Positions 13,190 to 15,753 of a stretch of DNA of 56,967 nt are shown here, piece by piece. The first letter of the stretch is position 1, and every line of letters begins with the position of its first letter. Made by a program: the position numbers and the translations under genes. The DNA comes from Nitrososphaera sp. Its GTDB lineage: Archaea > Thermoproteota > Nitrososphaeria > Nitrososphaerales > Nitrososphaeraceae. The notes beneath the pieces are model-generated. The model ran no database searches and was not told where the DNA came from. It was given only the letters and a program-made list of their open reading frames with translations. The stretch is taken from positions 1 through 56,967 of the forward strand of contig NZ_JACAEH010000016.1 of assembly GCF_013388945.1 (NCBI RefSeq). Direction: 5' to 3'.

Positions 13190-14983
13190 TTACGCCCGCG
13201 CCTCGTCGACGTAGAATATGGCCTCGTTGCGCCTGAGCGCAGCGCCTGCTGCAAGGCTCAGTATCGAGGCGTGAAGGCGGTCTGCGGCGGGCTCGGCGCC
13301 CTCGCTGTTGCCTGCAAGCACAAGGTGCAGTTTTATCGCAGAGCCAAGGACGTCTGCAAGCTCCTGGTTGACTGTCGCCGTATACGGCCTGAGCGCCCCC
13401 CTGAAAACGTCCGCCCTTGAGCGCAAGAGCCCGGATATCTTTTTGCCGACAGGCGCGTCCGGTCCTACCACCACAACCGTGCCCTTTGTGCCCTTGAACT
13501 TGGCAGGCTGCTCTAGCGCGCCCTCTGGCGCCATCGCAATGACTGCCTCCTTGACCACGAGTCCGGGGATGTACAGGTAGTTGTCGACAAGTGCGTCCCA
13601 CTGCTTCCTTGCCATGGCGCTGAATGCCGCGTTGTAGTCGTAGTCGCCGGTAAAGTGTATCACAGAGTCTATCGGTCCAAAATGCGTCTTGGCGGTGTTG
13701 AATATGCGCCTGACTGCCGCCTCGTCGAGAAAGTCGATTGCGTGGCTGTGGAACTCCTTGAAGTGGGCCTGGTCGGCAGGGTTTCGGTAAAGCACTATTA
13801 CCTGCTTGGCGCCTGACACCTGCGCTATTCCTGCCACCTTTTTGACCCGCTCGATGTCTTTTGGAGCAGACGATGTCGTCGTGAGCACGATGACCTTGTC
13901 CTTCAGTTCAGAGCCGGGAAGTATGTCCACGCCGGTGCCGACTATGGGCTTGACAGGGTAAAAGACGCGGTCGTTTGGTATCACCCTGCCGTTTATCAGC
14001 TTGCTTATCTTCTCGTCTGAAAGGTTCAGGACCATCTCGGCCACCTCGTCCTGCGCCAGAAACTCGCCGTCCACTATCATCTTGCTCGTGTTGCCCTGGA
14101 TCTTTTCAGCTATTTGCTGCATCTTGTCAAGTGCGCCCTTGACTGTTGCTGCAATCTTGGCTACCGTCGCGTCGTCGCCCTTGCCACGTTTTGCCGCTAT
14201 TTCTGTTGCGGCATCCCTGCACGCCTTTGCCACCACGTCGTCGGCGTCGCCAAGGAACGGAAGTGCCTTTGCAGTGACTACTTCTATTTCTGTTGCCGAA
14301 AGTTCAGGGTAGCCGCCGACGCGCAGAAACTCTGCCGCGGCCTTTGGGTAGACTGTCTTGTATATCCTGTCAGAGTGGACGGGCCCCGGGTTTGTGGCAA
14401 CCGAGCGGATGCCCCTTTCGGCAAGCTCCCAGGCAAGGCACTCTGCCAGCCTGTTCTTGGCGCCCTGAGAGGCGGTGTAGGGCGTCCTGAAGCGGTACGG
14501 CCTCTGCTCGTAGCGGTTCTCCTCTGAAAAGAACGTCGATATCGTTATCACCTTGCCTCCCTTTTCCATGGCCTTCAGGCCGGCGGCAGAGGTCCAGAAC
14601 GTGCCGGTGAGGTGTATGGCGACGCACTCTCGAAACTCCTTGACGCTTGCGTTTGTGAACGTCTTGACAGGCCCGGACACGCCGGCGTTGTTGACGATGA
14701 TGTCGACTCTTCCAAACTGGCTCTTTATGCCGTCAAACATGGAGTTGATGCCGTCTTCGTCTGACACGTCGACTCCTGGAAAAGTGGCGACCCTGCCCCT
14801 TGAGCCGGCCTTCTTTATGATGTCGTTCAGGATGGCGGCTGTCTGGTCGAGCGGCTCCTTGCGCCTGCCCATGATGGCGATGTTGGCGCTGTTTTCGGCA
14901 AACCTCTTTGCGATGGCCTGGCCGATTCCGGTGCCGCTACCGGTAACAACTACTGTCTTGCCCTCAAATTTCAAGCCGCTCAT
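13190..14983 (-). CDS. Tandem SDR protein resembling a malonyl-CoA reductase half
   Basis: 597 residues made of two short-chain dehydrogenase units. Unit 1 (about 1-260) has the dinucleotide motif TGSGTGIG and NNAG, then STFFSEENRYEQRPY, YTASQ and NPGPVHSDRI. The catalytic YxxxK is YTASQ, with Gln in place of Lys. A helical insert follows (about 260-335). Unit 2 (about 350-597) has no GxxxGxG or YxxxK and looks degenerate. Two-SDR halves with ST-F-S and GP-SDRI segments are, from memory, characteristic of Chloroflexus-type malonyl-CoA reductase. Possible role: malonyl-CoA or malonic semialdehyde reduction in the 3-hydroxypropionate/4-hydroxybutyrate cycle; this is inference. Confidence 0.75.
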   Translation of the reverse strand: MSGLKFEGKTVVVTGSGTGIGQAIAKRFAENSANIAIMGRRKEPLDQTAAILNDIIKKAGSRGRVATFPGVDVSDEDGINSMFDGIKSQFGRVDIIVNNAGVSGPVKTFTNASVKEFRECVAIHLTGTFWTSAAGLKAMEKGGKVITISTFFSEENRYEQRPYRFRTPYTASQGAKNRLAECLAWELAERGIRSVATNPGPVHSDRIYKTVYPKAAAEFLRVGGYPELSATEIEVVTAKALPFLGDADDVVAKACRDAATEIAAKRGKGDDATVAKIAATVKGALDKMQQIAEKIQGNTSKMIVDGEFLAQDEVAEMVLNLSDEKISKLINGRVIPNDRVFYPVKPIVGTGVDILPGSELKDKVIVLTTTSSAPKDIERVKKVAGIAQVSGAKQVIVLYRNPADQAHFKEFHSHAIDFLDEAAVRRIFNTAKTHFGPIDSVIHFTGDYDYNAAFSAMARKQWDALVDNYLYIPGLVVKEAVIAMAPEGALEQPAKFKGTKGTVVVVGPDAPVGKKISGLLRSRADVFRGALRPYTATVNQELADVLGSAIKLHLVLAGNSEGAEPAADRLHASILSLAAGAALRRNEAIFYVDEARA

Positions 14984-15092
14984 GATTCAGGTTGGAAAGG
15001 CGCGCTGGACGATTATTAAAGGTATTTGCGCACCGGCACGCCGAGTATTTTCCAAGCTTGATTAATCAGCAAGCAATGGTAACCCGGCAGAC

Positions 15093-15476
15093 TTAGTGCA
15101 GCGCGGCCCTTACGTGGCCCGCTATCAGGTCTGCGGCCTCTACCATCGCCTGGTTTGCCTGCAGGTTTTCTTCGTGGTTCCACCCGCCGTATATCCTGAC
15201 GTGGCCGTCAAGCGGGTCGACCCTTATCTCGCCCTCGTGCAGGAGCACTTCCTTTAAAAGTTCCGTCAGGCGCGAGTCGTTCTGGAGCCGCTCTGCAAAT
15301 GCAGGGTAGCCGGTCCAGCGCACTGCGACGACGCGCTTTTCAGAGAAGTGGCCCTTTGTCATGGGCTCGCACCTTGCAAGCACCTGCTCGGTGTTTGCAT
15401 TGCCCGTGTCGACGATGTAGTGGACCTGGTAGTATCCCAAAGTCCCGTATGGGAGCGGCGACGCGTCCTGCCTCAT
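15093..15476 (-). CDS. Conserved hypothetical protein (127 residues)
   Basis: A soluble protein with no recognised domain. The start is taken as ATG 15476, one base after the stop of the upstream gene, rather than an overlapping start 33 bases earlier. Visible features are VHYIVDTGNANTEQVLARC and the C-terminal GGWNHEENLQANQAMVEAA helix. It forms a two-gene unit with the histidine-rich gene upstream, so both probably act together. Confidence 0.65.
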   Translation of the reverse strand: MRQDASPLPYGTLGYYQVHYIVDTGNANTEQVLARCEPMTKGHFSEKRVVAVRWTGYPAFAERLQNDSRLTELLKEVLLHEGEIRVDPLDGHVRIYGGWNHEENLQANQAMVEAADLIAGHVRAALH

Positions 15477-15477
15477 C

Positions 15478-15753
15478 TCAGTTCCTCTCCAGCACCTGCA
15501 CCAGGTCAAAGTTCTTGCCGCTTACCCGGATTACGCCCCTGTTTGTGACAAACTTGGAGTTCAGGCCGAACTTGTGGCTGTAGTATTCCTGCTTTTCAAG
15601 AGAGTGCGTTCCAACAGCGACAGCCTCTGCCACTATGCCGTGGTCGTTCAGGTCTGCTGCAAGCATCTGGTTTGGCGACAACTTTTTGACTATGACAGGC
15701 TCCTCGTCGGAGTGCCCGTGCTCTTCGTGTGAGTGCGAATGCTCGTGCTCCAC
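15478..15753 (-). CDS. Hypothetical protein with histidine-rich N terminus
   Basis: 91 residues. The first 16 residues hold six His and several Glu (MEHEHSHSHEEHGHSDEE), a likely metal-binding tail. The remainder (VIVKKLSPNQMLAADLNDHGIVAEAV) has no recognised family. A TATA-like AATTTATTT near 15780-15790 lies about 30 nt upstream of ATG 15753. It is followed after one base by the 127-residue hypothetical gene. Confidence 0.65.
   Translation of the reverse strand: MEHEHSHSHEEHGHSDEEPVIVKKLSPNQMLAADLNDHGIVAEAVAVGTHSLEKQEYYSHKFGLNSKFVTNRGVIRVSGKNFDLVQVLERN

Follow-up and report, generated by a model that had tools for sequence, protein, structure and literature searches.

A stand-alone two-SDR protein of ammonia-oxidizing archaea that resembles one half of Chloroflexus-type malonyl-CoA reductase and is a candidate for malonyl-CoA reduction

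In the Sulfolobales, a single enzyme reduces both malonyl-CoA and succinyl-CoA. The malonyl-CoA reductase (MCR) of the Chloroflexus type is a bifunctional chain with four SDR units (SDR1 to SDR4), of which the N-terminal half (MCR-N) is the one that reduces malonic semialdehyde. In the MCR of Roseiflexus, the YXXRXXY motif present in SDR1 and SDR3 serves to bind the malonyl group, the catalytic triads are Thr165-Tyr178-Lys182 (SDR1) and Ser731-Tyr749-Lys753 (SDR3), activity was lost when Lys753 was mutated, Arg785 is important for activity, and the CoA is held by Arg799, Lys807, Lys919, and Arg1164 (PMC10470521). For the ammonia-oxidizing archaea (AOA), malonyl-CoA reductase was listed in 2018 among the enzymes without an identified gene (PMC6038301), its gene was again not detected in 2020 (PMC6964070), and a marker set of 2026 contains no malonyl-CoA reductase for variant II, the AOA variant of the cycle (PMC12894919). 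A proteome study of N. viennensis from 2025 proposed Asd and GabD as unproven candidates (PMC12542715), which we read as meant for the malonyl-CoA and succinyl-CoA steps, respectively. In that study, which dealt with carbon limitation (proteome PXD060602), Asd behaved like the known cycle proteins, and cluster V held 15 of 17 cycle proteins. The cluster with this pattern was likewise enriched in amino acid metabolism (PMC12542715), so that the pattern does not separate a role in carbon fixation from one in amino acid metabolism. In the genomes that we compared, AOA carry two PF02774 proteins each, as do most of their AmoA-negative relatives, so that there is no AOA-specific Asd duplicate; we therefore disfavor Asd as a dedicated AOA malonyl-CoA reductase, a bifunctional Asd being possible. 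In the open literature we found no paper that names the protein described below; subscription papers and preprints were beyond our reach, and an earlier identification is possible.

The window, that is, the whole 56,967-nt stretch of a Nitrososphaera sp. genome that was analyzed (contig NZ_JACAEH010000016.1), contains an open reading frame with an ATG start and zero internal stops (coordinates of all features are given in Table 1). Its full-length orthologs across four families show that it is not a chance reading frame. A preliminary description, which gave no strand, had read the product as two SDR units within 597 residues, the second of them degenerate, and both points are borne out by the predicted structure. 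Pfam recovers a single SDR domain (PF00106, E = 3.8e-43, residues 9 to 205) and has no match in the second half of the protein. An AlphaFold model computed with 41 sequences (pLDDT 88.4, pTM 0.90) places the first SDR unit, a helical insertion (residues ~207 to 310), and a second, Rossmann-like SDR unit (residues ~357 to 597) in this order, and the second unit gives a weak profile match to SDR2 and SDR4 of MCR that lies above shuffles.

Table 1. Positions in the window of the reductase gene and of its features
Feature	Coordinates	Strand	Basis
Whole gene, two-SDR MCR-like reductase, 597 aa	13190..14983	minus	ORF reading, Pfam, model, Foldseek
First (catalytic) SDR unit, residues 6-206	14366..14968	minus	PF00106 match at 9-205, model
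TGSGTGIG, dinucleotide-binding glycine motif, residues 14-21	14921..14944	minus	Translation; glycines invariant
NNAG motif, residues 98-101	14681..14692	minus	Translation, alignment
STFFS, residues 149-153; T150 aligns with catalytic Thr165 of Roseiflexus MCR-N	14525..14539	minus	Alignment; roles from PMC10470521
YXXRXXY, malonate-binding motif by homology, Y163-R166-Y169; Y169 is also the catalytic Tyr	14477..14497	minus	Alignment; motif from PMC10470521
Q173 (Tyr+4, usual Lys position) to K176 (Tyr+7), both invariant	14456..14467	minus	Alignments
NPGPVHSDRIYKTVYPKAA, residues 198-216; R206 aligns with Chloroflexus R773 / Roseiflexus R785	14336..14392	minus	Alignments; Arg785 role from PMC10470521
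Helical insertion, residues ~207-310, in place of the MCR-C extra domain	14054..14365	minus	Predicted models
AEKIQxNT, residues 292-299; K294 aligns with Chloroflexus K908	14087..14110	minus	hhalign; local similarity not significant alone
Second, degenerate SDR unit, residues 357-597	13193..13915	minus	Model; without Pfam match
FRGALRPYTATVNQEL, residues 527-542, best-conserved stretch of the second unit	13358..13405	minus	Alignment
Possible archaeal TATA box TTTAATAA, ~30 nt before the ATG	15013..15020	minus	Read by eye

When this model was compared with the PDB by Foldseek, ranks 1 to 24 were all MCR, aligned over the whole length with E values from 1.6e-26 to 9.7e-20 (1.6e-26 to 7e-24 for the C half), and MCR appeared again at rank 26. 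Rank 25 was the tandem SDR 2et6, which superposes poorly (TM 0.55, 17.8 Å), and single SDRs reached E values of ~5e-14 over ~245 columns, corresponding to one unit only; ordinary SDRs were about 10 orders of magnitude worse than MCR. A separate model of the Nitrosocaldus ortholog (L122; pLDDT 86.8) had MCR at ranks 1 to 25, followed by E values of 5e-13. Both predicted models display a tandem SDR half in the MCR arrangement, with one catalytic and one degenerate unit. TM-scores against MCR were 0.65 to 0.72 by query length and, for the N half, 0.71 to 0.77 by target length (0.76 for the window protein); taken with an rmsd of 5 to 9 Å, the range of 0.65 to 0.77 amounts to a moderate likeness. 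The models thus predict that the protein folds like half of a Chloroflexus-type MCR. The semialdehyde dehydrogenase fold (PF02774/PF01118) was not found in it, its Pfam matches being only to SDR and other Rossmann-type families. Because we looked for the bifunctional four-SDR chain of ~1,220 aa and for the YxxxK motif and found instead two SDR units in 597 aa and a glutamine, we call the protein MCR-like and do not file it as a member of that family.

Sequence alone does not decide between MCR and ordinary SDRs, since the scores are about equal domain by domain (84 bits for SDR3 of MCR and 92 bits for a glucose dehydrogenase); structure does better. The best PDB chains in phmmer searches were the full-length bifunctional MCRs 8hi4 and 8hjw, with scores that add up the two halves; single-domain HMMER scores were rejected as proof of MCR kinship, as a glucose dehydrogenase scores equally well. 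On the question, raised in the preliminary description, of whether the protein is closer to ordinary SDR families, structure and motifs clearly favor MCR, which single-domain sequence scores fail to do. When catalytic SDR units were placed in a tree, the AOA proteins joined SDR1 and SDR3 of MCR against 26 competing SDRs (support 94/91). This grouping leans on the active-site columns: once they were left out, it dropped to 44% of bootstraps (AU 0.54), being neither established nor contradicted by the other columns. When Chloroflexus MCR-N was the query, the ortholog came out on top in 14 of 15 AOA genomes, and in one genome of the Nitrosocaldus family (f2) the two were 39% identical across 209 residues; with MCR-C as the query, it often tied with other SDRs (the query sequences were matched against PDB 8hjw, the C half being identical). 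The helical insertion showed no significant sequence similarity to the extra domain of MCR-C, ranking within the top few of 200 shuffles, and we do not claim kinship between the two. Searches of plasmids, made for MCR relatives that would enlarge the MCR profile and for full-length relatives of the window protein, found none of either.

All of the motifs named in the preliminary description (TGSGTGIG, NNAG, STFFS, YTASQ, and NPGPVHSDRI) are present in the translation, and its statement that the first MCR half has ST-F-S and GP-SDRI arrangements agrees with the STIFS and PGPIESDRI of PDB 8hjw; it had missed two features, namely, YXXRXXY at residues 163 to 169 and an invariant Lys176 at Tyr+7. 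YXXRXXY occurs at the same place in 13 of 13 AOA proteins, 4 of 4 MCRs, and 1 of 26 other SDRs, and PGP[IV]..[DE]R[IL] is found in 13 of 13, 4 of 4, and 0 of 26, respectively. Conservation peaks at these two motifs (0.93 for residues 161 to 180 and 0.97 for residues 201 to 220), and T150, Y163, R166, Y169, R206, K176, and K294 are invariant in the AOA alignment. Chloroflexus K908 would correspond to Roseiflexus Lys919 by a counted numbering offset, which gives a hint that K294 may occupy this CoA-contacting position; in the Roseiflexus enzyme, Arg799 and Lys919 belong to the extra domain, a feature of the C half only. The YxxxK of classical SDRs and of the Ser/Thr-Tyr-Lys triad of MCR is absent: residues 169 to 173 read YTASQ (NPGPVHSDRI lies at 198 to 207), and the translation confirms Gln173 where the lysine would be expected. 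The caution that the preliminary description attached to this Lys-to-Gln change stands; yet the glutamine is invariant in 40 orthologs and in a separate alignment, with YT[AS][AS]Q in every ortholog inspected, which is unlike decay. Equally invariant among the orthologs inspected is the YX6K spacing from Y169 to K176. Since Tyr, Tyr+4, and Tyr+7 share one face of a helix and FabI and InhA use a lysine at Tyr+7, Lys176 may, by analogy, serve in place of the YxxxK lysine.

The genome of the window encodes an archaeal AmoA together with an HpaB_N protein that we interpret as 4-hydroxybutyryl-CoA dehydratase and hence belongs to an ammonia-oxidizing archaeon. Among 61 relatives, the ortholog is present in every genome of four families (f1, f2, f3, and f9), full length in all 43 genomes except for two incomplete assemblies in which it is fragmented; in the other 13 families of the order it was not found, and at most ordinary SDRs match there. 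AmoA, in 26 of the 44 genomes tested, marks those that bear the ortholog. Across 398 genomes of the phylum, the ortholog was recovered in 73 and AmoA in 73, these being the same genomes as listed and including Nitrosocaldaceae; one of the 73 orthologs is a fragment at a contig end. The preliminary description had held that absence from autotrophic AOA would count against its proposal, and the reverse was observed, with the ortholog in 73 of 73 AmoA-positive and 0 of 325 AmoA-negative genomes. Scanning named genomes yielded 262 loci; the 80 highest-ranking ones all belong to records of Thaumarchaeota/Nitrososphaeria (Nitrososphaera, Nitrosocosmicus, Nitrosotalea devanaterra, and Nitrosocaldus are represented), and identity to the window protein goes down to 46 to 50% in the most distant lineages. 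As AOA are one clade, the co-occurrence with AmoA is roughly one evolutionary event and not 73, and many other core genes of AOA would be expected to show such clade-level co-occurrence as well.

The AmoA of the window genome is found as two pieces covering 1-171 and two covering 136-183 on four contigs, at least one of them at a contig end (G000:C12:2695-3207, C15:158794-159306, C27:59368-59511, and C29:1-144), which suggests more than one amoA copy, broken in the assembly. HpaB_N proteins resembling 4-hydroxybutyryl-CoA dehydratase are also encoded in genomes of the order that have neither AmoA nor the reductase (G039, G043, G045, G047, G059, and G060), and genomes of family f2 have a tandem HpaB_N gene pair (G037:C1:116294-118702 and G053:C22:19347-21744), as reported for Nitrosocaldus cavascurensis.

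The reductase gene is surrounded by genes for a proteasome beta subunit, a PUA protein, AIM24, homoserine dehydrogenase, and an AsnC regulator and, further, for a TauE permease, two short ORFs of no known family, an RDD protein, and PurE. Parts of this gene order are kept in Nitrosotalea and Nitrosocaldus, and none of the neighborhoods examined has genes of the 3-hydroxypropionate/4-hydroxybutyrate (HP/HB) cycle beside the reductase gene. We rejected the neighborhood as operon evidence for function, the neighbors being conserved yet unrelated (homoserine dehydrogenase, TauE permease, PUA protein, and proteasome beta); its retention is consistent with vertical inheritance and offers no clue to function. 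The two short minus-strand ORFs (15096-15509 and 15481-15753) share 29 nt and lie immediately upstream of the reductase gene; they have no Pfam match and recur next to the reductase in several AOA, including Nitrosotalea; the upstream one opens with a His-rich stretch, MEHEHSHSHEEHGHSDEE.

We propose the protein as a stand-alone two-SDR reductase that is homologous to one half of Chloroflexus-type MCR and reduces malonyl-CoA, a reading to which we give an even chance. The preliminary description had offered the gene as a candidate for malonyl-CoA or malonic semialdehyde reduction; this reading is supported in part, in that the likeness to an MCR half holds and the gene is a candidate for reduction of malonyl-CoA, malonic semialdehyde, or succinyl-CoA. 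An Fe-ADH-type malonic semialdehyde reductase (~320 aa) is present in families f1 and f9 and was not seen in the AmoA-positive genomes of f2 (G037 and G053) and f3 (G038 and G054), so the ortholog occurs also in AOA families without that enzyme. In N. cavascurensis the Fe-ADH is likewise reported as missing, and SDRs ~30% identical to Caur_2614, the Chloroflexus MCR, have been proposed for semialdehyde reduction (PMC5797428). A universal gene suits a universal gap, malonyl-CoA reduction, better than it suits the semialdehyde step.

The protein could instead be an AOA-specific two-SDR enzyme outside carbon fixation, acting, for example, on another carboxylated carbonyl substrate, with its MCR-like arrangement inherited or convergent. 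This is unlikely: the dependence of the tree on active-site columns, the neighborhood devoid of HP/HB genes, the clade-level co-occurrence, and the Gln for Lys would all suit it, and against it stand the union of two MCR-specific substrate motifs with the architecture of an MCR half and the extreme conservation of the active site in AOA. Reduction of malonic semialdehyde to 3-hydroxypropionate, as in MCR-N and either alone or beside malonyl-CoA reduction, is also unlikely. By sequence, the catalytic unit is nearer to MCR-N (hhalign score of 179, against 155 for SDR3, and up to 39% identity in Nitrosocaldaceae), and this role would match the Fe-ADH-less families f2 and f3 and the SDRs proposed for N. 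cavascurensis (PMC5797428). However, most AOA have the characterized and unrelated reductase Nmar_1110, as cited in PMC5797428, so that a semialdehyde role alone would be redundant in most AOA and would leave the malonyl-CoA step without an enzyme; further, the insertion of ~100 residues is intermediate between those of MCR-N (~43) and MCR-C (~150), and the best Foldseek E value is to the C half of MCR. A role as the cycle's succinyl-CoA reductase, or as one enzyme for malonyl-CoA and succinyl-CoA alike, is improbable. Succinyl-CoA reductase likewise has no assigned gene in AOA (PMC6038301), and the carboxylate-binding motif would suit either dicarboxylyl-CoA, but the match is to enzymes of malonyl-CoA and malonic semialdehyde, and GabD is already a published, if unproven, candidate that we read as meant for the succinyl-CoA step (PMC12542715). 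A catalytically dead SDR with a structural or regulatory role, to which the missing YxxxK lysine might point, is scarcely credible for a protein whose catalytic and substrate regions are its best conserved (0.93 to 0.97) and in which Tyr169, Thr150, the glycine motif, and the alternative Lys176 are all invariant.

For a malonyl-CoA reductase of this kind, we infer the following mechanism. The first SDR unit would bind NADPH, and the malonyl carboxylate would be held by Y163, R166, and Y169 of YXXRXXY, aided by R206. The carbonyl that reacts would be positioned and protonated by T150 and Y169; K176, located a helical turn past the usual place, would stand in for the missing YxxxK lysine; and the degenerate second SDR, together with the helical insertion, would close the pocket and hold the CoA. 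A more specific version, in which this is the AOA form of a stand-alone half-MCR whose lysine moved from Tyr+4 to Tyr+7 and in which, in Nitrosocaldaceae and family f3, one site would carry malonyl-CoA through to 3-hydroxypropionate, is in our estimation decidedly unlikely.

The gene is a strong candidate for a CO2-fixation enzyme that has no assigned gene in AOA, which are among the most abundant microbes on Earth, and a single MCR-half gene that is universal in AOA and restricted to them makes the gap testable with one purified protein. If the proposal is true, the archaeal cycle and the 3-hydroxypropionate bi-cycle of Chloroflexus would be linked at the level of an enzyme, the AOA cycle variant would gain a marker gene, and the SDRs would gain a member whose catalytic lysine sits at an unusual position; for engineers of 3-hydroxypropionate production, a stand-alone MCR would likewise be of interest.

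Among known systems, the Nmar_1110-type Fe-ADH, which catalyzes the next step of the AOA cycle as cited in PMC5797428, belongs to an unrelated family, and two of the AOA families with the reductase gene showed no sign of it. With the C-terminal half of MCR (PDB codes 8a30, 8j29, 8hi5, and 6k8s), the window protein shares the tandem SDR with a degenerate second unit, the helical insertion after PGP..R, YXXRXXY, PGPVxxDR, and the best full-length Foldseek E value. It differs in being a separate protein of 597 aa instead of part of a four-SDR enzyme of ~1,220 aa, in having Gln for the YxxxK Lys, and in an insertion of ~100 versus 150 residues, and the identity in the structural alignment is ~18%. 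With the N-terminal half (PDB codes 8aew, 8hi6, and 6k8v), it shares the tandem SDR, STxFS, YXXRXXY, PGPxxSDRI, and the highest sequence identity of the catalytic unit (33 to 39%), whereas the insertion of MCR-N is much shorter and its YxxxK is present. The malonyl-CoA/succinyl-CoA reductase of Sulfolobales, of the Asd family, carries out the reaction proposed here in the same kind of cycle, but its fold is unrelated, the window protein having no Semialdhyde_dh domain. With the divergent SDRs of the FabI/InhA type, the window protein has in common a lysine at Tyr+7.
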